This document shows, piece after piece, positions 2,658 through 36,309 of a DNA stretch of 36,480 bases. The translations under genes were made by a program, and so were the position numbers. The number at the start of each line of letters is the position of its first letter. The stretch's first letter is position 1. Source of the DNA: Cytophagaceae bacterium (lineage in GTDB: Bacteria > Bacteroidota > Bacteroidia > Flavobacteriales > Flavobacteriaceae); the NCBI GenBank assembly GCA_002712765.1, contig PAUP01000095.1, positions 1-36,480 on the forward strand, read 5' to 3'. The notes beneath the pieces were generated by a model. The model saw nothing but the letters and a program-made list of their open reading frames with translations. It did no database searches and was not told where the DNA came from.

Positions 2658-4061
2658 TTATTTGGCTTTAAGCATCACAAAATCCCAAGGACCAAGTGTA
2701 AGGGGTTGATTGTTTTTACCTAAGGGTGAGTTGGTCAATACATCAATATAAGATTGAGCCTTTGGAAGGCTTGTACTGGTGCTTTGGTTCGAGAAATTCC
2801 CGATAAAATGAATCGTCTCTCCGTTGTTATAGCGTTTAAAATGAAGCAAATCATCGGTAGCTGTGTCTATAAAACCGATAGCAGCTGGCCTATGCCCACC
2901 ATGAAGTGCTGGCTCGGTATTTTTTAAAGTTCCCAATTGGGCTAAAAGATCAAAGTAATTACCGGCTTGTTTGGGGATGGTATCTTTTTCAAAAAAAGCC
3001 AGCCTGTGATTTAAATCATATTCCTGACCACTGTAGATTAGTGGCATACCAGGCAATGCGTAAATGAGCGCCGTAAAAAGTTCTTTTTTCTCACCCATAC
3101 GCTCCCCAAGTGTTCCAGCCCAAGAATTTTCGTCGTGATTGGTAATAAAGTACATATTGATGTCTGAAGCATCCTGACGTTGCTCATAGGCTTTAATTTT
3201 TTCTTTAATGGCAGCTGCCTTTGCCTTTCCGTTGGCCACATCATTGAGAAGGTGATGCATCTCCCAAGTATAATGCATATCAAAACCGTGATCAAAGAGA
3301 TCTGGTTGTTCTGCCTCGGCTAGCATAAAGACAGGCCTATGCTGGGTGATCGAGTCATGAGCTCGTTTAAAAAAGGCGGGCGGTACTTTGTGAGCTACAT
3401 CCATTCTAAATCCATCTACCCCTCTTTCTTTTACCCAGTAGGTCAGATCGGCAATCATTTGATCTTGCATCTCGCGACTGTTGTAATTGAGATCGGCAAC
3501 ATCTGCCCAACCGTAGGATACTCCCGTTTCGGGATCTGATGGATCAATGATTTCTCCCTGTTCATTTTGGGTGTACCATTCGGGATGTGCTTTGATCCAG
3601 GTATGATCCCAACCCGTGTGATTAGGCACCCAATCCAAAATAACAGCGATGTCGTGATCGTGAGCGGTCTCAATCAATTGATCCATATCGGCTTGATTAC
3701 CAAACTCAGGATTGATCGCTCTAAAGTCGGAAACAGCGTAATAACTACCCAATTCTCCTTTGCGTTTGGTCTGTGAAATTGGAAATACAGGCATAACCCA
3801 TAAGATTTTCACTCCCAATTGTTTAAGTTTTGGAATTTCCTCGGTAAAGGCGGCTAGTGTTCCTTCAGGAGAATATTGCCTAATATTTACTTCGTAGATG
3901 ACAGCCCCATCGGTACTATCGCTGTGATAAGTAAATGCGCTATCCGCTTTCGCGAAAGCGTTATCCTTCTCACTAGCAACTTCCTTTTTTTTATCATGCC
4001 TACAACCCAGTATTAGCAGTAATAGCAATAGATAAGCGACTAAATTTTGAATTTTCAACAT
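2658..4061 (-). CDS. GH13 alpha-amylase family lipoprotein
   Basis: The 467-residue glycoside hydrolase has a lipoprotein signal peptide ending in ILGC (Cys20). The (beta/alpha)8 GH13 motifs are present in order: DWVPNH at about 143-148, GFRMD with the nucleophile Asp221, the general acid Glu249 in MLAEAE, and the transition-state stabiliser in TNHDE (Asp310). Family knowledge: GH13 enzymes cleave or transfer alpha-1,4/1,6-glucosidic bonds; exact specificity cannot be read here. The protein is presumably anchored in the periplasm or outer membrane, and it is divergent from susC. Residues 35-39 (AFAKA), in the linker after the lipobox, are encoded by one copy of the iterated palindrome. A TACCTTTG -7 element is present 17 nt upstream of the ATG. 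Confidence 0.92.
   Translation of the reverse strand: MLKIQNLVAYLLLLLLILGCRHDKKKEVASEKDNAFAKADSAFTYHSDSTDGAVIYEVNIRQYSPEGTLAAFTEEIPKLKQLGVKILWVMPVFPISQTKRKGELGSYYAVSDFRAINPEFGNQADMDQLIETAHDHDIAVILDWVPNHTGWDHTWIKAHPEWYTQNEQGEIIDPSDPETGVSYGWADVADLNYNSREMQDQMIADLTYWVKERGVDGFRMDVAHKVPPAFFKRAHDSITQHRPVFMLAEAEQPDLFDHGFDMHYTWEMHHLLNDVANGKAKAAAIKEKIKAYEQRQDASDINMYFITNHDENSWAGTLGERMGEKKELFTALIYALPGMPLIYSGQEYDLNHRLAFFEKDTIPKQAGNYFDLLAQLGTLKNTEPALHGGHRPAAIGFIDTATDDLLHFKRYNNGETIHFIGNFSNQSTSTSLPKAQSYIDVLTNSPLGKNNQPLTLGPWDFVMLKAK
3945..3960. repeat. Iterated palindrome, copy 1 (16-bp perfect)
   Basis: CGCTTTCGCGAAAGCG is a perfect palindrome containing the 14-bp core GCTTTCGCGAAAGC found seven times in the window. 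It lies in the amylase gene and encodes AFAKA in the linker behind the lipoprotein Cys. Confidence 0.9.
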
Positions 4062-4078
4062 GGGTTCAATTTTTTAAA

Positions 4079-4086
4079 CAAAGGTA
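4079..4086 (-). promoter_or_regulatory. Probable -7 element of the alpha-amylase promoter
   Basis: The minus strand reads TACCTTTG, an exact TAnnTTTG match, 17 nt upstream of the amylase ATG. The same octamer precedes tadA and dxs. Confidence 0.5.
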
Positions 4087-4231
4087 TAAAGCTTGTCATT
4101 ATAATAAGGTAAATATGATTTTTTTGCATTTCTTGACTAAGAATTTGAAAATTTAGACATTAAATAATTATTCATTTGTCAGTAAATAGAATGCTAAAAT
4201 TCGAAATTATTAGTTTAAATGACTTTTAAAC

Positions 4232-4247
4232 ACGAAATCGTTTTCGT
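4232..4247. promoter_or_regulatory. LacI-type operator upstream of susC
   Basis: ACGAAATCGTTTTCGT is a near-perfect palindrome (two of 16 positions break the symmetry) with the central CG typical of LacI-family operators. Its right 11 bp, ATCGTTTTCGT, recur exactly as the reverse complement in the lacI/GH32 intergenic region at 27825-27835. It sits 18 nt upstream of the putative susC -33 element, a position more usual for an activator than for a roadblock repressor (inference). Confidence 0.5.
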
Positions 4248-4265
4248 AGATTTAACGTGCATCTG

Positions 4266-4298
4266 TTGTTCCTTTAACGTAATTTTTACATAAATTTA
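4266..4298 (+). promoter_or_regulatory. Candidate susC promoter
   Basis: TTG at 4266-4268 is followed after 22 nt by TAAATTTA at 4291-4298, one mismatch from TAnnTTTG. The spacing is within the range known for Bacteroidota promoters. Transcription would start near 4305, giving a leader of about 60 nt. Confidence 0.35.
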
Positions 4299-4363
4299 AC
4301 CCTTATAATAGTGCGATTGCGCTAAATATTTAACTAAGCAAACTAATTTTAAACAAAAATCTT

Positions 4364-7504: not shown

Positions 7505-7519
7505 TAAAAAAAGAAAACT

Positions 7520-9118: not shown

Positions 9119-9141
9119 TTTTAAATTTTGAATTTAGCTTT

Positions 9142-9173
9142 AAAAAGAGGGTTATTTTATAACCCTCTTTTTT
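9142..9173 (+). terminator. Hairpin terminator after susD
   Basis: A 14-bp perfect stem (9142-9155 with 9159-9172) contains the GAGGGTTAT/ATAACCCTC core and a 3-nt loop, and its 3' arm runs into a T tract. It should end or strongly attenuate susCD transcription before the downstream CRTAC genes, which start only 30 nt later. Confidence 0.85.
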
Positions 9174-9202
9174 AAGTTTATAGCCCTACAATACCTGTCA
9201 TA

Positions 9203-12200
9203 GTGCGCCTTAGATCCCTATATATTTTTCTTTGCTGCGGTTTACTTTTAAGCTGCCAGGATAAAGATGATAGCCCAAGAAAATTTACAGTTACTCCAAA
9301 TACTGGTATCACTTTTGAAAACCGTGTCAAAGACAGCACTCACCTCAATATTCTTAACTATCTATACTTTTATAACGGTGCCGGCACCGCCATCGCCGAC
9401 TTTAATAACGATGGCATAAAAGACATTTACTTTACCTCAAATCAAGGTCCTGACCATTTGTATATTGGCAGAGGTGATCTCAACTTCGAAAACCAAACCG
9501 CCACAAGTGGTATTACAAACTCTCAAGGCTGGACAACGGGTGTCACCACCGTAGACATCAATGCCGATGGCTTCATGGACATTTATATTAGTAAAGTCGC
9601 ACAACACCTTGATCTGAAAGGTCATAATCTACTCTACATCAATCAAGGCATACGAGAAGGCAAGGTCTATTTTAAAGAAGCAGCCGCCACCTATGGGCTT
9701 GATTTTAGTGGATATGGAACCCAAGCCGCGTTTTTTGATTATGATCTCGATGGTGACTTAGATGTCTATTTGTTAAATCATTCGCTTTTCCCGAATGGAA
9801 ATTACGGCAAAGGCAGTATTCGCAAACGTATCGATGCTATCGCAGGCGATAAACTTCTAAGAAATGATTCGTTACAATTTACTGACGTCACTGCCTCGGC
9901 AGGTATCTTGAGCAGTAAAATAGGCTATGGCCTTGGTCTTTCTATTGGTGATATCAACAAAGACAACTACCCTGACATTTATGTAGGTAACGATTTTTTT
10001 GAAAATGATTATCTCTACATCAATCAAAAAGATGGCACCTTTAAAGAACAAAATGTAAACTCCAGCCTTTTAGGTCATACTTCACACTACACCATGGGCA
10101 CAGATATAGCCGATATAAACAACGATGGCCTGTCTGATATTCTTACCCTAGATATGTTACCCGAAGATTTGATCACTTTAAAATCTGCAGGAGCCGAGTT
10201 TGCCTATCCAATTTATCAAAATCAGCTAAGAAACGGGTATCGCCCGCAGTATATGCAAAACACCTTACAGCTCAACAAAGGCAATGGCAGGTTTTCTGAA
10301 ATTGCCTTTCAGGCTGGAATTGCGGCCACCGAATGGTCATGGGCACCTCTTGTGGCCGATTTTGACAATGATCAAGACAAGGATATTTTTATCTCAAACG
10401 GTATCCAAGGCGCCACAAACGACATGGATTTTGTCAACTTTATATCTAATGATCACATTCAATCCAAATTGGGTGAAGGTATGACTGCCCAAGATCTCGC
10501 CCTAATCAACAAACTGCCTGAAAAAAAAGTGGCAAACTACTTCTTTGAAAATAACGGAGATGCCACCTTTACCAACACTTCTAACACCTGGGCAAAAACA
10601 ACGCCTAGTTTTAGCAATGGCGCTACTTATGCCGACTTGGACAATGATGGCGATTTGGATATTGTGGTTAACAATGTAAATGAACCTGCGATTATTTTAG
10701 AAAATCATAGTGAAAAGGCCCAAAACCCCAATCACTTTATACAGATTAGTTTGCAAGGTAAGGCCCATAACACTCAAGGAATAGGCGCTCAAGTCACCAT
10801 CTATACGCCCAGCGCTACACAGTTTTTTGAAAATTATACCACTAGGGGCTACCTCTCTGCTGTCCCTCCAGAAATAGCGACAGGACTAGGACCACATCAA
10901 CGTATTGACAGTATTCTTGTGCGATGGCCTTCACAGAAACAAGAAGTCTTAAGGGATATTGCTAGTGATCAACGCATAGTAGTAAAAGAAGGTGACGCCA
11001 AGATAGCGACTGGCTCAGAAAGACAAAACGCGACCACATCATTGGTGATTGAGGTCGATCCACTTATTGATTTTCAACATAAGGATCCTACTACTATAGA
11101 ATTTGACAGAGAACCCTTAAATCCTTATGCCAGCACAAATCTAGGAAAGACCCTTGTCACGGCCGATATCAATGGTGATGGTAATGATGATATCTTGGCG
11201 CTGGGCGCCAAAGGCCAGGCCTCGAGCATATACCTATATCAAAATGGCGCCTATCAAAACATGATGTTGCCCGATGCATTACAAGATGCTATAGCCGAAG
11301 ATACCGATGCTGCCCTTTTTGATGCCGATGGCAACGGCAGCCTAGACATCGTCATTGTAAGCGGCGGCAACGAGTTTAAAAGCGGTCCTGCGCTTAGACC
11401 TAGACTGTATCTCCAAACAGACACAGCTTTTGTAAAAGTAGAAAAGGCCTTTGGAGATTTGACCCTAAATGCCTCAAGTGTTACAGCAGTCGATATAGAC
11501 AATGACAATAATCTCGACCTTAGTTTTACCGCAAACGTAATACCACATCGCTTTGCGCAATCGGCGTCTCAATATGTGTATAAAAACTCAGGGCAAGCTA
11601 GCTTTACAGATGTGACAACCACTTTTGCTCCTGAATTCAAAGAAGTAGGCAATGTACAGGCGGTAGTTTGGGTAGATATTGATCAAAATGGTTTCAAAGA
11701 TGCTATCCTTGCGGGGCATTGGATGCCTATTCAAATCTATCTTAACAACGGCCAGCGTCTGGTCAAACAATCCTCCAACGGCTTGTCAAAAAGTAACGGT
11801 TTGTGGAACACCATAACAGCAGCCGATATCGATCTTGATGGCGATCTGGATCTAATTGCAGGTAACTGGGGGCACAATACCAAACTAAATGCGAGCCCTT
11901 CAAAACCTCTGCGCGTACGCCTTGCCGATTTTGATGATAATGGCACGGTAGATCCCATCGTTTCTTACTATCAAAAAGAGACAGAAACCACCCTTGCAAC
12001 CAAAGATGAGCTCGTTAAACAAATCCCTATGATCAACAAAAAGTTTTTGTCGTATAACGCTTTCGCGAAAGCGTCTATAGACCAATTATTCTCTAAACAA
12101 AAACTAAAAAACGCCCAGACAAAAGAAGTATACACCCTGAGCACGACTTTCTTTGAAAACAACAGCAATCAATTTACGGCCAAAGCCTTGCCTTTTGATA

Positions 12201-12496
12201 GTCAAACATCTTCTGTGAATGATATCTTGATCTCCGACCTTAATAATGATGAGTATCTCGACTTATTTTTGGTGGGGAACACCTATGAAATTAGCACACA
12301 ACTCGGTAGGTTAGATGGCTCTCATGGCGTACTTTTGTTGAATGACAAAAATGGTTATTTTCAGGCTGTAAATGAGCGAGAATTAGAGGGTGGTGGCCCA
12401 GGGCGAAGTGTCCAAAAATTACAGTTAAACCAGCAAATGTATTATGTAATAGGCCGCAATAATGAGACCCCCATTTTTTTAAAAAAAACAGAATAA
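9203..12496 (+). CDS. CRTAC/VCBS-repeat lipoprotein 1 (FG-GAP propeller with ASPIC/UnbV domain)
   Basis: The product is 1097 residues from a GTG start, with a lipoprotein signal MRLRSLYIFLCCGLLLSC (Cys18). The N-terminal half carries repeated FG-GAP/VCBS calcium-loop motifs: DFNNDGIKD about 66-74, DINADGFMD about 118-126, then DYDLDGDLD, DINKDNYPD, DINNDGLSD, DFDNDQDKD and DLDNDGDLD. An ASPIC/UnbV domain follows at about 508-595 (GIGAQV, RGYLS, DSILVRWPS). A second propeller half (DINGDGNDD, DADGNGSLD, DLDGDLDLIAGNWG) and a conserved C-terminal block complete it. Family knowledge: such repeats build Ca-binding beta-propellers used for adhesion or binding; no enzymatic role is known. It has two tandem paralogues downstream. 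The GTG was chosen because it gives a clean signal peptide directly after the terminator. One palindrome copy encodes AFAKA near residues 953-957. Confidence 0.9.
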   Translation: MRLRSLYIFLCCGLLLSCQDKDDSPRKFTVTPNTGITFENRVKDSTHLNILNYLYFYNGAGTAIADFNNDGIKDIYFTSNQGPDHLYIGRGDLNFENQTATSGITNSQGWTTGVTTVDINADGFMDIYISKVAQHLDLKGHNLLYINQGIREGKVYFKEAAATYGLDFSGYGTQAAFFDYDLDGDLDVYLLNHSLFPNGNYGKGSIRKRIDAIAGDKLLRNDSLQFTDVTASAGILSSKIGYGLGLSIGDINKDNYPDIYVGNDFFENDYLYINQKDGTFKEQNVNSSLLGHTSHYTMGTDIADINNDGLSDILTLDMLPEDLITLKSAGAEFAYPIYQNQLRNGYRPQYMQNTLQLNKGNGRFSEIAFQAGIAATEWSWAPLVADFDNDQDKDIFISNGIQGATNDMDFVNFISNDHIQSKLGEGMTAQDLALINKLPEKKVANYFFENNGDATFTNTSNTWAKTTPSFSNGATYADLDNDGDLDIVVNNVNEPAIILENHSEKAQNPNHFIQISLQGKAHNTQGIGAQVTIYTPSATQFFENYTTRGYLSAVPPEIATGLGPHQRIDSILVRWPSQKQEVLRDIASDQRIVVKEGDAKIATGSERQNATTSLVIEVDPLIDFQHKDPTTIEFDREPLNPYASTNLGKTLVTADINGDGNDDILALGAKGQASSIYLYQNGAYQNMMLPDALQDAIAEDTDAALFDADGNGSLDIVIVSGGNEFKSGPALRPRLYLQTDTAFVKVEKAFGDLTLNASSVTAVDIDNDNNLDLSFTANVIPHRFAQSASQYVYKNSGQASFTDVTTTFAPEFKEVGNVQAVVWVDIDQNGFKDAILAGHWMPIQIYLNNGQRLVKQSSNGLSKSNGLWNTITAADIDLDGDLDLIAGNWGHNTKLNASPSKPLRVRLADFDDNGTVDPIVSYYQKETETTLATKDELVKQIPMINKKFLSYNAFAKASIDQLFSKQKLKNAQTKEVYTLSTTFFENNSNQFTAKALPFDSQTSSVNDILISDLNNDEYLDLFLVGNTYEISTQLGRLDGSHGVLLLNDKNGYFQAVNERELEGGGPGRSVQKLQLNQQMYYVIGRNNETPIFLKKTE
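12057..12074. repeat. Iterated palindrome, copy 2 (18-bp perfect)
   Basis: ACGCTTTCGCGAAAGCGT is the longest perfect copy of the repeat. It encodes AFAKA inside a segment that the two paralogues conserve as DYAKR and DFAGK before the helix SIDELFSK/TIEEILTK. Confidence 0.9.
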
Positions 12497-15500: not shown

Positions 15501-15866
15501 TCTGTTATTGCCCTTAATAATGGCGACGGCAGCTTTGACATCACTGCCCTTCCCTACCAAGTACAACTTTCTTGTGTTTGTGGTATAAGTTGCACCGACC
15601 TAAATGACGATGGGTTTAAAGACATTATTCTAGGCGGTAACAACTTCGAATTTAAACCGCAATACTCGCAACTTGATGCCAATTATGGCAGCGTGCTACT
15701 TAGTCAAGGTGGGGCCACATACCAATGGTCAAATTATGACCAAAGCGGCTTTTTTGTCAAGGGAGAAATCAAACATCTACAGACATTTAAAGATAAAAGT
15801 GGACGCCATTTCCTTATCGCAGCGATCAATAATGAAAAACCCAAGATTTTTGCGTTGGATGAATAA
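12504..15866 (+). CDS. CRTAC/VCBS-repeat lipoprotein 2 (FG-GAP propeller with ASPIC/UnbV domain)
   Basis: The product is 1120 residues, with a lipoprotein signal ending in CCYSC (Cys22). It has the same architecture as its neighbours: FG-GAP loops (DINNDGLSD, DVNADGLLD, DYDKDGDLD, DINHDLYPD, DMDNDGYRD, DLDNDGDLD), an ASPIC/UnbV domain at about 526-613 (AVGTKVMLYYN, SRGFQSS, DSLRIIWPND), then a second series (DIDNDGNED, DADGDGDLD, DFDNDGDID, DIDGDNNKD, DLDNDGDMD) and the shared C-terminal SIDELFSKEIL region. It starts 7 nt after gene 1 stops and overlaps gene 3 by 8 nt, so the three are one operon. An in-frame ATG two codons later is an alternative start. It carries no palindrome copy. Confidence 0.9.
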   Translation: MNMFSLKRLVSSFLLLICCYSCTKDSSNEPETTATNEDTLFQLLPPDSTGIDFVNAIENQKDFNIFRYRNFYNGGGVAIGDINNDGLSDIYLTANMGENKLYLNKGNFVFEDISESAGVAGNKPWSTGVAMADVNADGLLDIYVSNAGNMEGNNHDNDLYINNGDLTFTEQAAAYNLAKSGFSTHASFFDYDKDGDLDVYILNNSNIPVSSLGYAEQRNKRAQNWENVPEILRGVGDLLMRNDGGTFTDVSEEAGIYGSLIGFGLGIMITDINHDLYPDIYVSNDFYERDYLYINNQDGTFTESIKEWTNHLSLSAMGVDMADINNDGLQDIFITDMLPEAEERVKSVMEFDGYDVYKLKQSKDFYQQFIQNTLQINNGNGSFSETAYYSGVEATDWSWSGLLFDMDNDGYRDIYVTNGINHDLTDLDFVDFFANDILQEMALTGKKQAIDSILVKMPVKPLPNYTYHNQKDITFKNVSQKWGLGTKSMSNGSAYGDLDNDGDLDLVVNNVNMHSFVYENKSNEQLEHNYLKLTFEGSDKNPFAVGTKVMLYYNDQISLQELIPSRGFQSSMEYDMTIGLGEATKVDSLRIIWPNDRTQLLEDVTVNQTVNLQQASATTTYKLPTPSVVTPLLSERSNSQLLTHQENSYSDFDYEGLIAKKVSQEGPSLAVGDIDNDGNEDIFIGGAKGKAGQVYMHSGNAALTQTTPAVFESDALFEDTAAAFFDADGDGDLDLLVASGGNELTSKQLFKPRLYINDGKGNFSKSATDLPSAFQNMSVVAPEDFDNDGDIDVFIGSRSVVGVYGIDPEHLLLENQGDGSFVDATQKLAYDTRTAGMITDAVWVDIDGDNNKDLLTVSEWSSPKIFKNTGRRLRRSQSSLDSLMGWWNAVAAEDLDNDGDMDFVFGNEGTNLHYLPTQQTPMKMYINDFDSNGTIEQITTLQKDGKDYPIHQKKELTGQINALKKQNIKASDYAKRSIDELFSKEILANSIVKTVDQSASVIALNNGDGSFDITALPYQVQLSCVCGISCTDLNDDGFKDIILGGNNFEFKPQYSQLDANYGSVLLSQGGATYQWSNYDQSGFFVKGEIKHLQTFKDKSGRHFLIAAINNEKPKIFALDE

Positions 15867-18800
15867 AGTATATTTTTCTATTGGTCTATTGTTTTTACTG
15901 TTTTCCTGTACTAAGGAAGGCAGTCAATTTTCTATACCTACCCCAGAAAAAACAGGGATTACCTTTACCAATACCATTACAGAGACCGACCAATTAAACA
16001 TATTGGATTATCTCTATTTTTACAATGGAGGTGGCGTAGCTGTAGGCGATATAAACCAAGATGGATTAGTTGACATTTTTTTCTCTGGCAATCAGGTCAA
16101 AAACCAATTGTATCTCAATAAAGGAAACTTAGAATTTGAAAACATATCGGCAACAGCGGGCATAGAAGGTAATAGTACCTGGAATACAGGAGCCGTTATG
16201 GGCGATGTTAATGGCGATGGGTATCTCGACATTTATGTATGTGCCGTAGTAGGTATTAACGGGTTTAACGGCTATAACGAACTCTATATCAACAATGGCG
16301 ACAACACCTTTACAGAAAGCGCCAAGAGCTATGGTTTAGATATTGACTCTTATAGCTCGTCGGCGGCATTTTTAGACTTTGATCTCGATGGAGATTTGGA
16401 TATTTACCTGCTCAATCACGCCGTACACACCCCAGAATCTTTTGGGGTAGCGAGTCTAAGAAACACCAGAAACTTTGAAACTGGAGACAAATTATTGCGC
16501 AATGACGGCAACCATTTTACTGATGTAAGCGAGCAAGCAGGTATTTATGGCGGTATTAATGGTTACGGTCTAGGTGTTGCCATATCCGATTTTAATAAAG
16601 ACGGTTACCCAGATATATATGTAGGTAACGATTTCCATGAAGACGACTATTATTATATCAATAATGGCGACGGTACCTTTTCTGAATCCTTGCGTCAATA
16701 CTTTGGACATACCTCTCGCTTTTCTATGGGTAACGACGTGGCCGATCTCAATCATGACGGCTGGCCCGACATCATCTCTCTCGATATGCTCCCTGAAGAT
16801 GAAAAAGTACTCAAGTCTTCAGAAGGCGACGACGACATACAAACCCAAAAACTGCGTACCGAGCGGTATGGATATCACTACCAGTACACCCGCAATATGC
16901 TCTATGTGAATCAGCAGGGGTACAACTATCGCGAGCAGGCACTGATGAGCGGTATTGCCGCCACAGATTGGAGTTGGAGTGCCTTATTTGCAGATTATAA
17001 TCAAGATGGAGAACAAGATCTTTTTATTGCCAATGGCATACCTAAAAGACCTAATGATCTCGACTACATCAATTATGTGTCTTCAGATCAAATTCAAAAC
17101 AAAATTTCTAATACCAAGCTTATCGATCAAAGTGCGTTAGAACTTATGCCTAGTGGTGCTACTCACAATATGATCTTTGAAGGGGGGACAGATGTTCAAT
17201 TTTTTGATAGGTCAGGGCAATGGATGATCAAAGACAGTATTGTCTCTGGTGCTACAGCCTACGCCGATCTTGACAACGATGGTGATCTTGACTTGATCAC
17301 CAATAATATCAACCGCCCTGCCACCCTTTACATCAATAAGACCAATGACAAAGCAGGTTATCTCAAGCTTGCGCTTCAAGGCAACGACAATAATACCTAC
17401 GGGGTTGGCGCTAAGGTCTACTCCTATCACAATGGCGAGTTACAGTACAAAGAACAGTATAGCGTGAGAGGCTTTCAAGCTTCGTCAGAGCCTATTATTC
17501 ATTTTGGGTATGGCACGCACACCAAAGTCGATTCTATACGCATAGTGTGGCCTAATAAGACCACACAACTACTCACCAATATCGATGTCAATCAAAGCCT
17601 TGACATAAGTCCCAAAAGTACAACACCTTGGAAACCGGCTACCCCTGCCACCGGTAAAAACTTGTTTGAAAAAACGGCCAATAATCTTGGGATAGACTTT
17701 AAACACACCGAAGACCGTTATCTCGATTTTAACCGTCAGAAATTGATTCCGTATCAAATTTCAGATAGAGGGCCTGCGGTGGCGTACGGCGATTTGAACA
17801 ACGATGGCAACAAAGATCTCTTTTTTGGCGGTTCCAAGTTTAATGCAGCTCAAGTCTATATTCAGAAAGATTCTGCTTTCGCGAAAGCGCCCACAGGATT
17901 TATCCTCCCAGACAAGGTCACAGAAGATGTAGCTGCAGCCGTAGTAGACATCAATATGGACGGAAAACAAGATGTGGTGATAGGCACGGGTGGCGGTGAT
18001 TTTTACAACCAGGCCAAACCACTAAAAAATCGCATATATCTGCAACAAGATACCACCTTTGTAGCAGGCGTATGGCCAGAAATGTTTGACAATACTGCCG
18101 TTCTAGCCATAGGAGATTACAACAGTGACCAACGTCCCGATATCTTTGTAGGAAATCATGCCATTACCAACGATTTTGGTATAGCACCCAAGTCTTACTT
18201 GCTCAAAAATGACGGGGCTAGTCTTTCTATAGATAGCAGCAATGACCTAGGCAGCCCCGGTATGATTACAGATGCGATCTGGCATGACTTTGACAATGAT
18301 GGGACCGAAGATCTTATCGTTATAGGCGAATGGATGCCCCCTGTGTTTTACAAAAATACCGAGGGACGCTTTCAAGAAGTAGATATGCAACTGGATCAGC
18401 ACTCTGGCTTATGGCAAAGCATCGCTCCCTTTGATATTGACCAAGATGGCGATGTAGATTATCTCCTGGGTAATTGGGGACTCAATAGCAAATTCAAAGC
18501 CTCTGCCAGCTTTCCTATGCGGATGTACAAGGCAGATTTTGATGATAATGGCCAGACCGAAACAATAGTTACTACTCAAAAAGAGGGTGCATACTATCCT
18601 TTACAAGGTCTTAATGTTTTGGCTTCACAGCTAGTAAGTCTCAATAAAAAATATGCCTCCTACAGTGATTTTGCTGGTAAGACTATCGAAGAAATTCTAA
18701 CCAAAGAGCAATTGCAAAAAGCAACAGTGCTCGAGGTACATACCTTGGCATCAGGATACTTAGAAAACAACAAGGGCAAATTTACCTTTAAACCCTTTGA

Positions 18801-19107
18801 GAGCTGGATGCAAGTGTCTCCCATTTTGGCTTTTTGCACCTATGATTTTGATCAGGATGGCAAACAAGAAGTTTTGGCTGCTGGCAATTATTTTGGTGTC
18901 AAGCCCTTTCATGGGAGATTGGACGCCTTTTCTGGCGCGATGATATCATCGGTTTCAGACATGGTGCCAGGACATCAAATTGGCTTAGATTTTGCAGATA
19001 AATCTATACGTGATTTACAAATTATTCGTTTACAAAATAAGACATACCTTTTGGCCACTTTTAATAATCGTGCCGCCGAAGTGTACCAATTGAATACCCT
19101 TAGATAA
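15859..19107 (+). CDS. CRTAC/VCBS-repeat lipoprotein 3 (FG-GAP propeller with ASPIC/UnbV domain)
   Basis: The product is 1082 residues. The start at 15859 (MNKVYFSIGLLFLLFSC, Cys17) gives a textbook lipoprotein signal. The frame is open further upstream, with another ATG at 15832 inside gene 2, which is less likely. The ATG overlaps the upstream stop in ATGAATAA, pointing to translational coupling. Architecture as in paralogues 1 and 2: FG-GAP loops (DINQDGLVD, DVNGDGYLD, DFDLDGDLD, DFNKDGYPD, DLNHDGWPD, DYNQDGEQD, DLDNDGDLD), ASPIC/UnbV at about 497-584 (GVGAKVYSYHNG, RGFQASSEP, DSIRIVWPN), then DLNNDGNKD, DINMDGKQD, DFDNDGTED, DIDQDGDVDYLLGNWG and the C-terminal TIEEILTKEQL region. A palindrome copy encodes AFAKA near residues 673-677. 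Confidence 0.9.
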   Translation: MNKVYFSIGLLFLLFSCTKEGSQFSIPTPEKTGITFTNTITETDQLNILDYLYFYNGGGVAVGDINQDGLVDIFFSGNQVKNQLYLNKGNLEFENISATAGIEGNSTWNTGAVMGDVNGDGYLDIYVCAVVGINGFNGYNELYINNGDNTFTESAKSYGLDIDSYSSSAAFLDFDLDGDLDIYLLNHAVHTPESFGVASLRNTRNFETGDKLLRNDGNHFTDVSEQAGIYGGINGYGLGVAISDFNKDGYPDIYVGNDFHEDDYYYINNGDGTFSESLRQYFGHTSRFSMGNDVADLNHDGWPDIISLDMLPEDEKVLKSSEGDDDIQTQKLRTERYGYHYQYTRNMLYVNQQGYNYREQALMSGIAATDWSWSALFADYNQDGEQDLFIANGIPKRPNDLDYINYVSSDQIQNKISNTKLIDQSALELMPSGATHNMIFEGGTDVQFFDRSGQWMIKDSIVSGATAYADLDNDGDLDLITNNINRPATLYINKTNDKAGYLKLALQGNDNNTYGVGAKVYSYHNGELQYKEQYSVRGFQASSEPIIHFGYGTHTKVDSIRIVWPNKTTQLLTNIDVNQSLDISPKSTTPWKPATPATGKNLFEKTANNLGIDFKHTEDRYLDFNRQKLIPYQISDRGPAVAYGDLNNDGNKDLFFGGSKFNAAQVYIQKDSAFAKAPTGFILPDKVTEDVAAAVVDINMDGKQDVVIGTGGGDFYNQAKPLKNRIYLQQDTTFVAGVWPEMFDNTAVLAIGDYNSDQRPDIFVGNHAITNDFGIAPKSYLLKNDGASLSIDSSNDLGSPGMITDAIWHDFDNDGTEDLIVIGEWMPPVFYKNTEGRFQEVDMQLDQHSGLWQSIAPFDIDQDGDVDYLLGNWGLNSKFKASASFPMRMYKADFDDNGQTETIVTTQKEGAYYPLQGLNVLASQLVSLNKKYASYSDFAGKTIEEILTKEQLQKATVLEVHTLASGYLENNKGKFTFKPFESWMQVSPILAFCTYDFDQDGKQEVLAAGNYFGVKPFHGRLDAFSGAMISSVSDMVPGHQIGLDFADKSIRDLQIIRLQNKTYLLATFNNRAAEVYQLNTLR
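17875..17888. repeat. Iterated palindrome, copy 3
   Basis: This is an exact 14-bp GCTTTCGCGAAAGC. It encodes AFAKA in a variable loop (KDSAFAKAPTG) of CRTAC protein 3. Confidence 0.9.
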
Positions 19108-20472: not shown

Positions 20473-21378
20473 ATGATAAAAAAAATTGTTGTTGGACTAG
20501 TAATCATGGCCTTGGTTGCTGGATTGGGGTATTTCTTTTTATGGCCTTCAGATTATAGGGTCTCTTTTAATGCCACAACTACCGCTGGCACCATCAATCA
20601 ATCGCTAAAATCCTGGAATACCCAACTGGAAGCAAGCGAAATTATTGCCAGCCACAACCTCAACGAGCTGCAACAGGAAATTCGAATAAACGATTCTTTA
20701 CATCGATATACCTGGAGCATTACCCAACTCAATGATAGCACACAACGCATACATATGGATGTCAAAGACCTAGAGCATAGTCTGGCCAACAAATGGCAAG
20801 TGCTTTTTGACGACAATCCCCCAATAGCCCTATTGGCAAAGAAGCACGCCAAGTCGTTTTACACACTGCTTATGGATCATCTATCTCGTATTAGAGTGAC
20901 CATAGAAGGAGAAAGTACCATTCCTACCCTATATTGTGCCTATATCCCGCTAAAAGGATTACAAATCGAGAAAGCCAAGGGAATGATGCAAAATTACACC
21001 CTACTAAGTGATGTGCTTCTCAAAAATCAGGTTACTTTAAACGGGACTCCCTTTGTCGAAATTACCAAGTGGGACAGAGCTACAGATAGTATTTCTTACA
21101 ATTTTTGTTTTCCTATTAAACGCTCTGAAAAATTACCTATTCTCAAACAAATCAAATACAAACGGGTTTTTGAACAACCTGCAATTAAAGCCGAATACAA
21201 CGGCAACTATATCACCTCAGATCGAGCGTGGTACGCCTTATTAGACTATGCCGAAAGGAATGATATCGCGGTAGAAACTACTCCTATTGAGATTTTCTAT
21301 AACAACCCAAATATGGGTGGCGACGAGCTCAATTGGAAGGCCGAAATCTATATGCCCATCGCCAGAGAAGAAGATTAA
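20473..21378 (+). CDS. Membrane-anchored GyrI-like (effector-binding domain) protein
   Basis: The 301-residue protein has one N-terminal hydrophobic segment (residues 5-25, KIVVGLVIMALVAGLGYFFLW) and no lipobox. A central region of about 110 residues could be an SRPBCC/START-like module (DYRVSFNATTTAGTINQSLKSW), which is tentative. The C-terminal part ends in PIEIFYNNPNMGGDELNWKA followed by EIYMPI, the typical close of GyrI-like/AraC effector-binding domains in Bacteroidota. There is no DNA-binding domain, so it is unlikely to be a transcription factor; family knowledge suggests small-molecule binding. It directly follows the PAP2/haloperoxidase gene and precedes the pentapeptide gene by 10 nt. 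Confidence 0.7.
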   Translation: MIKKIVVGLVIMALVAGLGYFFLWPSDYRVSFNATTTAGTINQSLKSWNTQLEASEIIASHNLNELQQEIRINDSLHRYTWSITQLNDSTQRIHMDVKDLEHSLANKWQVLFDDNPPIALLAKKHAKSFYTLLMDHLSRIRVTIEGESTIPTLYCAYIPLKGLQIEKAKGMMQNYTLLSDVLLKNQVTLNGTPFVEITKWDRATDSISYNFCFPIKRSEKLPILKQIKYKRVFEQPAIKAEYNGNYITSDRAWYALLDYAERNDIAVETTPIEIFYNNPNMGGDELNWKAEIYMPIAREED

Positions 21379-21388
21379 GCGCCCTAGT

Positions 21389-21958
21389 ATGGAAACTTTT
21401 ATAGACCAGACATTTGAAGATGTAGATTTTACCAAAACGCCTTTTCAAACTGCCGAATACGACAACTGCCATTTTAAGGACTGCCTTTTTCAAGACAAAC
21501 ATATCTCTAACTGCACCTTCTTAGAATGTCACTTTTCAGACTGCAATCTCACCAATACTCAATGGGGTGGCACCACTTTTAATTCGGTCGAATTTGAGAA
21601 CTGTAAATTGCTAGGAAGCGACCTTAGTGGGTGTAATCCTTTTATGTTGCAATTGCGCTTTCGCGAAAGCAATCTCACCCTGGCCATATGCAGTGCACTT
21701 CCACTTAAAGGAACCTCATTTTTGGACTGTGTATTAGAACAGACCGACTTTACTCATGCCGATTTAAAAAAAGTTCGCTTTGAGAATTGCGACCTAAAAA
21801 ATGCCATTTTTGATCAGACCCAACTTGAAGGTGCTGACTTTACAAAGGCTATAAATTACGAGATAGACCCAACCCAAAATGCAATAGCTGGTGCTCTTTT
21901 TAGTCGTGATGGTCTAGAGGGAATACTTACTACTTTTGGCATAAAAGTAATAGACTAA
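21389..21958 (+). CDS. Pentapeptide-repeat protein
   Basis: The 189-residue protein is built almost entirely of pentapeptide repeats with the central Leu/Phe pattern: NCHFKDCLFQ, NCTFLECHFSDCNL, SVEFENCKLLGSDLSGC, FRESNL, TDFTHADLKKVRFENCDLKNAIFDQTQLEGADF. These fold into a right-handed quadrilateral beta-helix. Some relatives mimic DNA and protect gyrase, but most have no known role. The frame extends upstream into the preceding gene, but METFIDQTF at 21389 is the sensible start, 10 nt after the previous stop. One palindrome copy encodes RFRES within a repeat rung. It is the last gene of the run; only a weak hairpin follows. Confidence 0.85.
   Translation: METFIDQTFEDVDFTKTPFQTAEYDNCHFKDCLFQDKHISNCTFLECHFSDCNLTNTQWGGTTFNSVEFENCKLLGSDLSGCNPFMLQLRFRESNLTLAICSALPLKGTSFLDCVLEQTDFTHADLKKVRFENCDLKNAIFDQTQLEGADFTKAINYEIDPTQNAIAGALFSRDGLEGILTTFGIKVID
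21657..21670. repeat. Iterated palindrome, copy 4
   Basis: Exact 14-bp core, here read in a different frame (with the preceding C) as RFRES inside a pentapeptide rung. Confidence 0.9.
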
Positions 21959-27803: not shown

Positions 27804-27824
27804 TTTAATCATTTCCTTTTTGGA

Positions 27825-27840: not shown

Positions 27841-27880
27841 ATTAATAAAATCCTATATTTTAGTATGCATAAGATTATTT

Positions 27881-29437
27881 ATGCGCACTTTCTTCTTCTT
27901 TTTGCCCCTCTTAATCTTGCTGAGTTGTAAAGAGCAATCACCCGGTTCAAAAATGAATACAGTGATTAATGACACTGTAGTGTCAGACTCGTTGCGCTTT
28001 CGCGAAAGCTATAGACCGCAATACCACTTTAGCCCTCCAACACAATGGATGAACGATCCTAACGGGCTCGTCTTTAACAAGGGTACCTACCATCTCTTTT
28101 ATCAATACTATCCTGAAGATATTGTTTGGGGACCTATGCATTGGGGTCATGCCACCTCCAAAGACCTCGTCAAATGGAAACATCAGCCCATTGCACTTTA
28201 TCCGGATAGTTTGGGTTATATTTTTTCGGGTAGCGCAGTCGTAGACCATACCAACACTTCTGGATTGGGCTCCAAAGACTACCCACCCATGGTTGCCATA
28301 TATACTTATCACAACATGGAAGGCGAGAAAGCTGGCCGATCCGATTTTCAGACTCAGGGCATTGCCTATTCTTTAGATCAAGGGCAAAGCTGGAAAAAGT
28401 ATAAAAACAATCCTGTAATTGGCAATCCTGATGGCATTAGAGATTTTAGAGATCCAAAAGTAATGTGGCACGAGCCTTCACAACGTTGGATCATGACTTT
28501 AGTGGCTGGCGATCACGCCAAGTTTTATAGCGCTCCAGATTTGATTCACTGGACCCACATAAGTGATTTTGGTAAAGACGATGGTGCTCATGGTGGGGTT
28601 TGGGAATGCCCCGATTTGTTTCGGCTCCAAACCGCAGATGGACAAGAGACCAAATGGGTACTTCTTATCAGTATAAATCCAGGCGCACCCAATGGCGGCT
28701 CAGGAACCCAATATTTTATAGGCGATTTTGACGGCACCCAGTTTACAACAACCCAAACAGCCCCCAAATGGTTAGACTATGGTTCAGATAATTATGCAGG
28801 CGTTACTTACAACGGTTTGCCCGATCAGGAGCGCAGGTTTATAGGATGGATGAGCAATTGGAATTATGCACAAAAAACCCCTACAAAAAACTGGAGAAGT
28901 GCAATGACGCTTGCTAGGAAATTAGCACTTGTCAAATTAGATCAAGGGTTTTTCTTGCAACAACAGCCTGTCGATCAACTCGATGCTTACCTGTCTAAAG
29001 ATCCTACCATTGTTAAGATTTCTGATACAGTATATCGAGCCAGCGCTTTTAATCAACACAAAATAACGCTAGATATAAAAAAGAGCGACGGCCCTTTTTC
29101 TTTACATTTTGAAAATGAGGTCAACCAAAAACTTACCTTAGGTTGGCAGGCCAAAACAGCCACCTTTTTTATCGACAAAACCCGCTCGGGCCTTACACAG
29201 TTTGAACCCCGTTTTGCAGACCGCGTGCATACTGCGCCTTTACCCTTTGATCTCGATAAAGACATCAAAATAGAACTCTACATCGATGCCTCATCTATAG
29301 AGGTATTTGTAAATGGCGGTCTTCTTACCATGACCGAACAAGTATTTCCGACCCAACCCTATACCCGTATGACCATAGCGGGAAATGTAGCCACCTCATT
29401 GCCTACTTTTTCTAAAGTGGCCAGAATTTGGGATTAA
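27881..29437 (+). CDS. GH32 fructan/sucrose hydrolase lipoprotein
   Basis: The 518-residue protein has a lipoprotein signal ending in ILLSC (Cys16). The five-bladed GH32 propeller carries WMNDPNG (nucleophile Asp59), FRDPK (Asp191, transition-state stabiliser) and WECPDLF (acid/base Glu242). A C-terminal beta-sandwich follows (IELYIDASSIEVFVNGG). Family knowledge: GH32 releases fructose from sucrose, inulin or levan; membrane anchoring points to envelope digestion of fructans or sucrose. The MFS porter and fructokinase genes follow at once, giving a complete release, uptake and phosphorylation path. A palindrome copy encodes RFRES (39-43) just before the catalytic domain. Confidence 0.93.
   Translation: MRTFFFFLPLLILLSCKEQSPGSKMNTVINDTVVSDSLRFRESYRPQYHFSPPTQWMNDPNGLVFNKGTYHLFYQYYPEDIVWGPMHWGHATSKDLVKWKHQPIALYPDSLGYIFSGSAVVDHTNTSGLGSKDYPPMVAIYTYHNMEGEKAGRSDFQTQGIAYSLDQGQSWKKYKNNPVIGNPDGIRDFRDPKVMWHEPSQRWIMTLVAGDHAKFYSAPDLIHWTHISDFGKDDGAHGGVWECPDLFRLQTADGQETKWVLLISINPGAPNGGSGTQYFIGDFDGTQFTTTQTAPKWLDYGSDNYAGVTYNGLPDQERRFIGWMSNWNYAQKTPTKNWRSAMTLARKLALVKLDQGFFLQQQPVDQLDAYLSKDPTIVKISDTVYRASAFNQHKITLDIKKSDGPFSLHFENEVNQKLTLGWQAKTATFFIDKTRSGLTQFEPRFADRVHTAPLPFDLDKDIKIELYIDASSIEVFVNGGLLTMTEQVFPTQPYTRMTIAGNVATSLPTFSKVARIWD
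27996..28009. repeat. Iterated palindrome, copy 5
   Basis: Exact 14-bp core in GH32, read with the preceding C as RFRES in the linker between lipobox and catalytic domain. Confidence 0.9.
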
Positions 29438-29449
29438 TCAACCTAGTAT

Positions 29450-31679: not shown

Positions 31680-31791
31680 ACCATCCCGATCAAAAAAAGC
31701 AGTAACTCTGGAGTCATTTGAACGAGAATGAGAAATGTGCTAGGGTGTAAAAATTGCATTCATATGGTAGTAAAATACCAGTTCAACTTCC

Positions 31792-31799
31792 TATTTTTG
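31792..31799 (+). promoter_or_regulatory. Probable -7 element of aspS
   Basis: TATTTTTG matches TAnnTTTG exactly, 22 nt before the aspS ATG. No -33 TTG is present at ordinary spacing. Confidence 0.4.
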
Positions 31800-31821
31800 C
31801 AATTCATTTCAAGAACAACCC

Positions 31822-33570: not shown

Positions 33571-33832
33571 ACTTAGACGCATATTTATCATTTTGGTATT
33601 TCTGTTGTGCACAGGAATGTTGGCCTATGGGTACAACCTCACCTCAAGTACAGAAGTAGACGAGCTTCGTCTTGGGCATAAACTCGTAGGAATGGCTATA
33701 GCGGGTTTCTTTTTTGTGGCCATGCCAGTGTTTATTTACCACCGCTGGAAAAACAAAAAAGTGAAGGATTATATGCTTACCGAAGAAAACATCCTTAAGA
33801 TGAAAGCCTTTAACGACAGTAAAAAATCTTGA
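33563..33832 (+). CDS. Small two-helix membrane protein of unknown function
   Basis: The 89-residue protein is not assigned to a named family. Two transmembrane helices are apparent at about residues 6-24 and 41-59, followed by a basic cytoplasmic stretch ([10 protein letters not shown]) and a polar tail. The start is GTG, located inside the last codons of aspS with an 8-nt overlap, so expression is probably coupled to AspRS synthesis. No other start keeps the first helix. Confidence 0.65.
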
Positions 33833-33891
33833 AAATCAGAGGCTTAATTAAAAAAATACACTAAGGAAACCTTATGTTAAAAATAAAAACG

Positions 33892-33899
33892 TAAGTTTG
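33892..33899 (+). promoter_or_regulatory. Probable -7 element of the cold-shock gene
   Basis: TAAGTTTG matches TAnnTTTG exactly, 27 nt before the ATG. The leader between them is almost pure A/T. Confidence 0.5.
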
Positions 33900-33926
33900 T
33901 TCTTTATTAATATTTTATTTTTTATA

Positions 33927-34118
33927 ATGGAAGGAACAGTTAAATTTTTCAATGAGTCAAAAGGTTATGGTTTTATAACTAATGACGACACTGGTAAAGA
34001 CATCTTCGTACACGTTACAGGTCTTAACGGTGAAACTATCAACGAAGGAGACAAAGTTGAGTACGTAGAAGAAGAAGGAAGAAAAGGAATGACAGCTGCA
34101 CAAGTACGTGTGCTGTAA
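33927..34118 (+). CDS. Cold-shock domain protein (CspA family)
   Basis: The 63-residue single-domain OB-fold protein carries both nucleic-acid-binding motifs, KGYGFI (RNP1) and DIFVHV (RNP2), in the sequence order typical of CspA. It binds single-stranded RNA/DNA and acts as an RNA chaperone. The frame is open upstream, but MEGTVKFFNES at 33927 is the conserved family start. It is transcribed alone: a TAAGTTTG promoter element lies upstream and a strong terminator downstream. Whether this copy is cold-induced or constitutive cannot be seen. Confidence 0.95.
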   Translation: MEGTVKFFNESKGYGFITNDDTGKDIFVHVTGLNGETINEGDKVEYVEEEGRKGMTAAQVRVL

Positions 34119-34146
34119 TGATATAGATATATCTTTTTACGATTGG

Positions 34147-34175
34147 ATGCCCGCTGGAAAGCGGGCATTTTTTTT
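34147..34175 (+). terminator. Terminator after the cold-shock gene
   Basis: The 9-bp stem ATGCCCGCT/AGCGGGCAT with a GGAA tetraloop is followed by a run of 8 T. It is 28 nt after the csp stop and also faces the convergent tadA gene. Confidence 0.9.
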
Positions 34176-34181
34176 GTTCAA

Positions 34182-34628
34182 TTATCGCTTTTTGGCAAAG
34201 AAAGCTTGTAATAATTGCTGCGCCTGATCTGCCAGTATACCACCTTCAATAACTGTTTTGGGATGGTAGGTCGTCCCCAATGCTGTTGCCCCTCTTCGAG
34301 GGTCTTTGGCGGCATACACCACTCTCGCTATCTGACTCCAAAAAAGTGCCCCAGCACACATTTGACAGGGTTCTAGGGTTACATATAGGGTGCAATTTTT
34401 TAAGTATTTCCCCCCTAAATAGTTGGCCGCTGCGGTGATGGCCTGCATTTCGGCATGGGCTGTGACATCTGTCAATCGTTCTGTTAGATTATGCGCTCTG
34501 GCAATAATGGTATTTTCTATGACCACCACAGCTCCTACAGGGATCTCTTCACTTTCAAAAGCTAGCTGGGCCTCTGCTAGTGCGCGTTTCATAAAATAAG
34601 TATCATCAAAAGGATCGATTATTGCCAT
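34182..34628 (-). CDS. tadA: tRNA-specific adenosine deaminase
   Basis: The 148-residue cytidine-deaminase-fold enzyme has zinc-site motifs H58-A-E60 and P87-C-Q-M-C91. The neighbouring segments EIPVGAVVV, AHNLTERLTDVTAHAEMQAI and KDPRRGA are diagnostic of TadA. It converts A34 to inosine in tRNA-Arg(ACG), which lets one tRNA read CGU, CGC and CGA. It is divergent from dxs across 47 bp. The -7 element TACCTTTG ends only 4 nt before the ATG, so the mRNA is probably leaderless. Confidence 0.95.
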   Translation of the reverse strand: MAIIDPFDDTYFMKRALAEAQLAFESEEIPVGAVVVIENTIIARAHNLTERLTDVTAHAEMQAITAAANYLGGKYLKNCTLYVTLEPCQMCAGALFWSQIARVVYAAKDPRRGATALGTTYHPKTVIEGGILADQAQQLLQAFFAKKR

Positions 34629-34632
34629 AGTA

Positions 34633-34640
34633 CAAAGGTA
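34633..34640 (-). promoter_or_regulatory. -7 element of tadA, next to the start codon
   Basis: The minus strand reads TACCTTTG-N4-ATG, an exact TAnnTTTG match. Transcription would begin at or next to the A of the start codon. Confidence 0.55.
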
Positions 34641-34663
34641 TACAAATGTTCAGCGCCATAACG

Positions 34664-34671
34664 TACCTTTG
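34664..34671 (+). promoter_or_regulatory. -7 element of dxs, next to the start codon
   Basis: TACCTTTG-N4-ATG repeats the tadA arrangement in the opposite direction. The element forms an inverted pair with the tadA one. Confidence 0.55.
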
Positions 34672-34735
34672 CAATATGTCAGCTCCACTTTTAAACCGTA
34701 TTAATACTCCAGAAGACCTTCGCAAGCTTTCGCGA

Positions 34736-34749
34736 AAGCAATTACACAC
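34736..34749. repeat. Iterated palindrome, copy 6
   Basis: Exact 14-bp core near the 5' end of dxs, read in the third frame as KLSRKQ. Confidence 0.9.
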
Positions 34750-36295
34750 GCTTCCTAAAGCGTTGCGACAGTTCATTATTGATATTGTAGCTACCAAAGA
34801 AGGGCACTTGGGGGCCAGTTTAGGGGTTATAGAGCTCACCATCGCCTTACATTATATTTTTGATACCCCAAACGATCTGTTGGTTTGGGATGTAGGTCAT
34901 CAAGCCTATGGCCATAAAATTCTTACAGGACGACGTGAGCAATTTGAGACCAATAGACGTAGAGGAGGTTTGAGTGGCTTTCCCAAACGGGACGAAAGCA
35001 TCTATGACACTTTTGGTGTGGGGCATAGCAGTACAGCGATCTCGGCAGCTTTAGGAATGGCCCTGGCCGCACTGCAACAAGGATTATTGAAGCGCAAACA
35101 TATCGCAGTAATTGGTGATGCCTCTATTGCTAGTGGGATGGCTTTTGAAGGCTTGAATCACGCGGGGGTGACTAAGGCTAATTTACTGGTAATTCTCAAC
35201 GATAATGCCATAGGTATAGACCCCAGTGTAGGCGCCTTAAAAAAATACCTTACCAATGTCAAAAAAGGAACAGCCCGAGAGGAAAATCTTTTTGAGGCTT
35301 TAAATTTTGACTACTACGGCCCCGTAGACGGACACGATCTAGAGGCGTTATTAGATATTTTAACAGTGCTAAAAGACAAGGATGGCCCAGTACTACTTCA
35401 CGTAATCACCACCAAAGGTAAAGGCCTTGCACAAGCCGAAGCCAATCAAGTCGTATATCACGCTCCAGGTAAATTTGATGCGACGACAGGCGAACTAGCG
35501 CCAAAATCTACGATAAGCCAACCTCCAAAGTACCAAGACGTCTTTGGGCATACCCTGGTCTCGCTAGCCGAGAAGAACCCAAAAATTATGGCAATAACTC
35601 CTGCTATGCCCACGGGAAGTTCGCTCCGATATATGATGGAGCGATTTCCAGACAGAGCGCTTGACGTGGGTATCGCAGAGCAGCATGCCGTAACCCTTGC
35701 CGCTGGTATGGCTACCCAAGGTATGATGGTATTTTGCACTATTTATTCTACCTTTTTACAACGTGCTTATGACCAAGTAATACACGATGTCGCCCTCCAA
35801 AACATACCCGTAATATTTTGTCTAGACAGGGCAGGTTTGGTAGGTCAGGATGGCCCTACCCATCATGGGGTATTCGATCTCGCCTATCTCAATTGCATCC
35901 CAAATCTTATCATATACGCCCCTAGCGATGAGCTAGGCTTGCGCAATATGAGGTAGACCGCTCAATTAGGTCTTGAGCATCCTATTGCGATTCGATATCC
36001 TAGAGGACGGGGGCATACTTTAGATTGGGAACAACCCTTTCAAGAAATGCCTATTGGCAAAGGTCGGTGTTTGCGCAAAGGCGCCCATATTGCTATTCTA
36101 TCTATAGGCACCATAGCACTCAACGTGAGCAAGGCTATAAAGATTCAAGCTGTCAATGCAAGTCACTACGATATGGGCTTTTTAAAACCCTTAGATCTTG
36201 AATTGTTAGATTCGATTTTTGAGCAGTATCACACTATTGTTACTGTCGAAGATGGCACCCGTATAGGCGGTTTGGGTAGTAGTGTGTCAGATTAT

Positions 36296-36309
36296 GCTTT
36301 CGCGAAAGC
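36296..36309. repeat. Iterated palindrome, copy 7
   Basis: Exact 14-bp core near the 3' end of dxs, read as AFAKA. Confidence 0.9.

Follow-up and report, generated by a model that had tools for sequence, protein, structure and literature searches.

The 36,480-nucleotide stretch of DNA analysed here (the window) contains seven exact copies of a 14-bp perfect palindrome, GCTTTCGCGAAAGC, and its distribution in the family Flavobacteriaceae suggests that this motif probably belongs to a genome-marking system of Bacteroidota that was previously undescribed. Such a system would comprise ~400-900 near-invariant symmetric sites of ~54 bp per chromosome, which would owe their spacing to selection or drive and be read by a new dimeric protein, and it would serve either chromosome organisation or the uptake of kin DNA without a type IV pilus.

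The preliminary description of the window had regarded seven copies as unexpected by chance, and this was borne out by a Markov expectation of ~1e-4 or less and by 100 dinucleotide shuffles of the window, which yielded no copy of GCTTTCGCGAAAGC. All seven lie within ORFs, use all three reading frames and encode AFAKA (four copies), RFRES (two) or LSRK (one). Copy 1 (3946-3959; the palindromes are given without strand) encodes AFAKA near the N-terminus of an amylase-like ORF (2658-4061, minus strand) and the site is present in all three covered relatives. Copies 2 (12059-12072) and 3 (17875-17888) encode AFAKA in CRTAC-type ORFs on the plus strand (9203-12496 and 15673-19107) and were found in 7/10 and 6/10 covered relatives, respectively; the three relatives without the site at copy 2 match at 35-37% only and may be paralogues, and G007 additionally carries copy 3 with a one-base difference. 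Copy 4 (21657-21670, RFRES), in a pentapeptide-like ORF (21287-21958, plus strand), is present in 6/10 covered relatives and, with a one-base difference, in G008, while copy 5 (27996-28009), which encodes RFRES directly ahead of a conserved RPQYHF block in a GH32-like ORF (27881-29437, plus strand), is present in 4/9, with the first 12 bases retained in four more. Copy 6, in the N-terminal dxs ORF (34646-35956, plus strand; LSRK), lies at 34726-34739 and not at 34736-34749, an earlier error of 10, and was found in none of 12 covered relatives. Copy 7 (36296-36309), encoding AFAKA in the C-terminal dxs ORF (36047-36442, plus strand), was found in 10 of 11, the exception (G017) encoding AFAKA via other codons. 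Rfam models at gathering scores had no match within the window.

The palindrome is iterated throughout the genome, as had been proposed: the window's own 2.77-Mb draft genome holds 369 copies and none of the reversed control, so that the copies are neither at the Markov level nor confined to the segment. The genus of the window is inferred to be Dokdonia, represented here by, among others, the complete genome of D. donghaensis (G001) and an incomplete draft (G000). Strain DSW-1T of D. donghaensis has been sequenced by PacBio (PMC4974333). All 18 Dokdonia genomes searched contain 369-905 copies each and no reversed control, which supports the suggested comparison in concept to HIP1, a highly iterated palindrome. 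The genome counts correspond to a density of ~130-275 copies per Mb, and the ~900 copies in G001 to ~1 site per 3.7 kb. The motif had also been suspected in related marine flavobacteria, where we found it, frequently at orthologous positions. Among 299 genomes drawn from the family, more than 19 copies occur only in Dokdonia, Nonlabens and a third genus; since these draws show the motif to be rich in three genera only, its role is not a general one. A ParB tree of 26 genomes gives three changes for the motif-rich genera, and its well-supported branches are compatible with one. In a small sample of motif-poor genera (15 stretches of 20 kb, L404-L418, each from a different genus), no other iterated palindrome of 10, 12 or 14 bases with at least three copies was found; one of these stretches, L414, carries two copies of GCTTTCGCGAAAGC. 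We also considered 'dialects' of the motif centre (GCTTTNNNNAAAGC) and rejected them, as a count above 61 was seen only in the five rich genomes of the 299 (G000, G003, G027, G258 and G207).

The copies are evenly distributed along the chromosome. Their spacing has a CV of 0.725 versus 0.99 at random, with none of 2000 randomisations as low, and gaps below 1 kb number four where 24.8 are expected. In G001, 20-kb windows contain 1-8 sites each with a variance/mean of 0.36 (45 of 46 windows, one with masked bases being omitted), and 20 stretches around the chromosome contain 3-8 sites each. That every copy is inside a gene is true of the window but does not generalise: in 400 kb of D. donghaensis, 53 of 107 copies lie between ORFs and 54 inside, and in a sample from G000, 11/53 are not entirely within ORFs.

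The pattern of copies is all-or-nothing, with many exact and few decayed. In 920 kb of G001 we counted 249 exact copies and 22, 40 and 28 copies with one, two and three mismatches, versus means of 0.0, 0.07, 1.07 and 10.9 for 15 control palindromes in 400 kb. Protein-guided alignments of orthologues, made without using the motif, show that the motif is conserved at the DNA level. From G001 to a second species (G004), exact matches were obtained for 18 of the 19 coding copies that could be mapped, and 72/72 testable motif codons are identical, compared with 572/1030 flanking codons (three ORFs without orthologue omitted); the corresponding numbers are 17/18 copies and 68/68 codons for G005, and 17/19 copies and 71/72 codons for G006. 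Copy loss is greater in the latter genome than in its sisters (27/32 exact from G004, 29/32 from G005), and the distant pair G003 and G000 has few mappable copies in common (2/6). The site is retained at some places despite protein identity down to ~55%. That the motif stays near letter-perfect while adjacent DNA changes indicates that a protein probably reads it as a recognition mark.

Furthermore, the site exceeds the 14 bases. The surrounding bases had been described as not shared, which more copies contradict: a flank consensus emerges, in which the 14-mer is enclosed by C and G and then by TTAC...GTAA, less pronounced in G000 than in D. donghaensis, and the degenerate flanks extend to ~20 bases on each side, i.e. 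roughly 54 bp in total. This degenerate flank is common to coding and intergenic copies, and left-right covariation is absent (341 symmetric matches versus 349 shuffled at the first four intergenic positions). Together with the perfect symmetry, these features suggest that the site is read as duplex DNA. We tentatively favour the reading that GCTTTCGCGAAAGC with its degenerate flanks is a duplex recognition site of a putative symmetric dimer, most likely organising or marking the chromosome.

Several other explanations need to be weighed. A perfect inverted repeat could form an RNA or cruciform hairpin, e.g. a transcription terminator, and many intergenic copies in G001 indeed lie shortly after a stop codon, but we consider this very improbable given the missing covariation, the half of the G001 copies that lie within ORFs, flanks that have A rather than T downstream, and tandem, divergent and convergent spacers that hold 77, 26 and 19 copies, roughly in proportion to their lengths (41.6, 20.5 and 14.6 kb). 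A mobile element of the REP or MITE kind would account for many scattered copies, yet there is no common insert beyond the degenerate flank, all three reading frames are used, and the dxs, CRTAC and pentapeptide sites are in register with site-less relatives, mostly without inserted codons; we therefore agree with the preliminary description that the motif is not a mobile element, an origin that seems to us next to inconceivable. In some amylase and GH32 alignments, gaps adjoin the site. It is also unlikely, although less so, that the palindrome is tied, as HIP1 may be, to a DNA methyltransferase or to a mismatch-repair signal on the internal CGCG or TCGCGA. HIP1 (GCGATCGC, cyanobacteria), for which the available part of PMC4390886 describes a link to methyltransferases, is the closest iterated palindrome, and it shares with our motif a short perfect palindrome in hundreds to thousands of dispersed, lineage-limited copies. 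However, HIP1 is a different sequence of 8 bases at 300-2700 per Mb (same part of PMC4390886), against 14 near-invariant bases plus flanks at ~130-275 per Mb in Bacteroidota hosts with very few one-mismatch copies, and such a length is far beyond the expected reading of a methyltransferase. Outside the motif, the internal words show nothing striking (CGCG, 341 versus a Markov estimate of 437; TCGCGA, 45 versus 38) and we saw no clear restriction avoidance; the suggested restriction target is improbable for a 14-base site.

DNA uptake is a close rival to chromosome organisation, and we regard it as quite possible; both were among the roles put forward in the preliminary description. Competent cells would prefer motif-bearing DNA and recombination would restore and spread the motif by molecular drive, as for DUS in Neisseria and USS in Haemophilus. 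Like these, GCTTTCGCGAAAGC occurs in hundreds of dispersed exact copies outnumbering one-mismatch copies, evenly spaced at permissive places (site flanks 71-72% conserved versus a block average of 76-78%, G001/G016 against G004/G005), with stronger conservation of orthologous copies than of the adjoining sequence and losses that are frequently single mismatches (5/5 between G004 and G006). The exact to one-mismatch ratio of 11.3 over 42 variants gives, by the formula in the accessible text of PMC2397512, a 2Nes of ~6.2, based on all copies and not only aligned ones, where the same text has ~4 for DUS; the exactness is stronger than the ~2.4:1 given there for DUS. Two Nonlabens phages of 35.7 kb each, nearly identical to one another (97.9% over 32.1 kb), have no copies where 6-7 would be expected at Nonlabens density, assuming a motif-rich host. 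A preference for its own DNA is described for another flavobacterium, without an established motif, in the part of PMC7965970 available. On the other hand, GCTTTCGCGAAAGC is perfectly palindromic and its flank consensus is symmetric too, whereas DUES are stated to be non-palindromic in the portion of PMC1939737 at hand. A type IV pilus-like machine (secretin, PilC-like) is without match in 7/11 rich genomes, including the complete and very dense G001: secretin PF00263 and T2SSF PF00482 were each found in 4/11 rich (G007, G009, G017 and G258) and 3/15 poor genomes. ComEC, present in all 11 rich genomes tested but also in 14/15 poor ones, was rejected as a discriminating gene. According to the available sections of PMC2397512, genes of recent acquisition lack DUS; our motif is missing from the two phages but does occur on mobile elements: a phage-like contig (L174) has three sites in 11.3 kb, and mobile clusters in other genera of the family, resembling metal-efflux or conjugative elements, carry it too. 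Preferential uptake is putative here; our literature search showed no transformation of Dokdonia or Nonlabens among the matches listed, and in the available text of PMC11813361, which names Dokdonia, 'natural transformation' appears in the reference list only.

For the recognition site of a dimeric protein, which we tentatively prefer, the mechanism would be that a sequence-specific protein binds the GCTTTCGCGAAAGC duplex as a symmetric dimer, as the symmetry of the motif suggests, and that the regularly spaced sites serve to mark or organise the chromosome as a whole, as part of nucleoid architecture. ParB, Noc, SlmA and MatP act on nucleoid architecture via palindromes on smaller scales; parS, the Noc and SlmA sites and matS are palindromes of 12-16 bases with dimeric readers, present in tens of copies and either restricted to one chromosome domain or kept out of it. 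Our motif is likewise a palindrome, but its ~900 copies in G001 are uniform, without domain confinement or exclusion. No reader protein was found among the ParB paralogues examined in rich and poor genomes: ParB_N has exactly one match in 10/11 rich genomes, and a second ParB paralogue was dismissed because extra matches occur without relation to the motif, in G000 (rich) and in G047, G066, G118 and G161 (poor). The choice of chromosome organisation rather than DNA uptake is the least certain part of our interpretation. For a nucleoid protein, so many sites with hardly any tolerated variants would be out of the ordinary, and accumulation through uptake predicts even spacing, permissive positions and exactness just as well (available part of PMC2397512).

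In the open-licence literature searched, the exact GCTTTCGCGAAAGC string was absent, its inner 12-mer gave no match and its inner 10-mer matched, among the papers listed, only ones unrelated by title. Searches of this literature for an overrepresented uptake sequence for transformation in Bacteroidetes gave nothing, and among the matches listed there was nothing on the motif for a Dokdonia palindrome and no flavobacterial highly iterated palindrome. As an iterated sequence of 14 bases, GCTTTCGCGAAAGC is remarkably clean, with hundreds of exact and few decayed copies, and the question of its role is of the kind still open for HIP1. Since its hosts, Dokdonia and Nonlabens, are cultivable marine flavobacteria, this role could be settled by experiments on binding, deletion or uptake. 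Furthermore, the motif may serve as a label of DNA that once resided in these genera.

All seven exact copies of the 14-base perfect palindrome GCTTTCGCGAAAGC reported in the preliminary description were recovered in the window, where 0 of 100 shuffles gave a copy; the sixth copy occupies 34726-34739, a shift of ten bases relative to the position first given for it, and allowing up to two mismatches added just one further place. The copies had also been said to lie always inside genes, which is true of the window (7/7 in ORFs, in all three frames) but not of the first 400 kb of D. donghaensis DSW-1T (G001; 3,293,944 bp, PMC4974333), with 54 copies inside ORFs and 53 between them, even though ORFs cover 93%, nor of the source-genome sample (42 inside ORFs, 11 not wholly inside). 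ORF calling used length as its sole criterion; the names given to the window's genes were assigned by eye or taken from that description. The window's dxs is split into two ORFs, 34646-35956 (436 aa) and 36047-36442 (131 aa), which may reflect a frameshift or mis-assembly in the draft genome.

Occurrence of the motif is all or nothing. The 400 kb of G001 hold 107 exact copies and 8, 15, 15 and 94 with one to four mismatches, while 15 permuted control palindromes averaged 0, 0.07, 1.07, 10.9 and 99.7 at zero to four; the corresponding counts in 332 kb of the source genome including the window were 53, 6, 13, 25 and 110. Over 920 kb of G001 we found 249, 22, 40 and 28 copies at zero to three mismatches, against a Markov expectation (orders 1-5, motif masked) of 0.0005-0.007 exact copies. 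In the source genome (G000; 2.77-Mb draft, 78% complete) we counted 369 copies of the motif and 0 of its reversed sequence, and 18/18 Dokdonia genomes have 369-905 each. Among 299 genomes drawn from the family, the motif occurs at all in 61 and more than 19 times in only five (G000, G003, G027, G258, G207); G207, of genus g191, has 408, and the genus of G258 (g11) is most likely Nonlabens, the genome matching a Nonlabens contig at 85.6-88.5% identity over 5.7 kb. An 18-base extension of the motif occurs in at least 111 named stretches, and among the 80 matches listed 77 are named Dokdonia or Nonlabens, the remaining three being Muricauda sp. TY007, a Flavobacteriaceae MAG and Flavobacteria bacterium BBFL7. 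Drawing 395 genomes from the phylum gave 22 with any copy; G000 apart, none had more than 6.

Within Dokdonia the motif is conserved at the DNA level. In a collinear block of about 120 kb, blastn from G001 to G005 could map 24 of 34 copies, 23 of them exact, with 72% identity in the flanking 90 bases; the comparisons G001-G016 and G004-G005 each gave 32/33 exact, losses were greater in G006 (exact 27/32 from G004, 29/32 from G005), and distant pairs, with few mappable copies, were mixed (G003 to G000, 2/6). As the motif itself might have anchored the blastn matches, protein-guided alignments of the coding copies were made as well. From G001, exact copies numbered 18/19 in G004 (three ORFs without an orthologue excluded), 17/18 in G005 and 17/19 in G006, and codons for the same residue were identical in 72/72, 68/68 and 71/72 cases in the motif versus 572/1030, 531/988 and 514/1006 in the flanks. 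The window copies, starting at 3946, 12059, 17875, 21657, 27996, 34726 and 36296, have an exact site in relatives in 3/3, 7/10, 6/10, 6/10, 4/9, 0/12 and 10/11 cases (36/65 comparisons). Lost copies often differ by a single change (5/5 in G004 versus G006), the rest by three or four bases or gaps; the dxs site of G017 retains AFAKA by different codons. In G015 (C4, L117) a 20-base insertion interrupts one copy relative to that of G002 at block position 34443.

Spacing is even (CV 0.725 versus 0.99 expected; 4 versus 24.8 expected gaps below 1 kb), with CVs of 0.43-0.60 in five 120-kb blocks, 3-8 copies in each of 20 stretches round the G001 chromosome, and a variance/mean of 0.36 in 45 G001 windows without masked bases. 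The three largest gaps in the first 400 kb of G001 are mostly giant ORFs (about 4430, 5060 and 2940 codons); the first two, at G001:C1:288426-320307, lack the motif entirely and each has a 319-codon neighbour of the same start. Coding copies are frequently close to signal peptides or linkers, as judged by eye, and comEC of D. donghaensis holds a copy (RFRES) at G001:C1:104330-104343, the ORF's ComEC match being 104404-105204. The site reaches beyond 14 bases: the flank consensus from +1 to +4 is G 91%, T 74%, A 87% and A 73% in intergenic copies (n=127) and G 85%, T 47%, A 69% and A 63% in coding ones (n=119), and in both the outgoing strand is poor in G as far as about +20. Covariation between left and right flanks was not found, symmetric matches being slightly fewer than in shuffles in 6/6 comparisons; the site thus seems to be recognised in duplex form rather than as a hairpin.

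Outside the motif-rich genomes, copies are found on mobile DNA. Single 20-kb stretches from six motif-poor genera (L414, L419-L423; G118, G095, G104, G231, G218, G128) account for 19 of the 28 copies in their genomes, in clusters that by eye resemble metal-efflux and conjugative-transfer genes and by blastn are common to several genera; in G093, G303 and G068 copies cluster on one to three contigs, with a similar cluster at G093:C3:32-110 kb. Motif density in such clusters is about that of a motif-rich host. Constraint on the elements is weaker than in Dokdonia, 46/80 pairwise comparisons being exact (both directions counted), with 140 mismatches versus 314 expected from flanks. These clusters perhaps derive from a motif-rich host and mark past passage through it. 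At least 120 viral stretches carry the motif; the 80 listed have mostly single copies, and at least seven contigs have two or more. L174 (IMGVR_UViG_2617271332_000001), with ORFs phage-like by eye, has three in 11.3 kb, in contrast to two Nonlabens phages of 35.7 kb each without a copy, which are 97.9% identical over 32.1 kb and so count as about one observation. A second ParB-domain gene in G000 (C8:6247-6525, L383) may derive from a plasmid or an integrated element.

The perfect symmetry suggests that a putative dimeric protein reads the palindrome, and even placement over the whole chromosome fits an organising role. The same features also fit an uptake-like sequence maintained by recombination, a reading we consider possible but on the doubtful side. 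DNA uptake sequences (DUS) are described with 97% versus 85% identity, in permissive places and with spacing related to conversion tracts (PMC2397512), DUES spacing is even (PMC1939737), and long fragments make uptake more even (PMC7811141). The 249:22 ratio over 42 variants gives a 2Nes of about 6.2 by the formula in PMC2397512, above the roughly 4 given there for DUS. Against uptake, the motif is palindromic whereas DUES are stated to be non-palindromic (PMC1939737), mobile elements bear it, and secretin and T2SSF matches are absent from 7/11 motif-rich genomes; ComEC, present in 25/26 genomes, does not decide between the readings. Riemerella columbina shows a preference for its own DNA, for which no motif has been established according to PMC7965970. 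The choice is close, and we put chromosome organisation slightly higher, as a tentative role short of an even chance.
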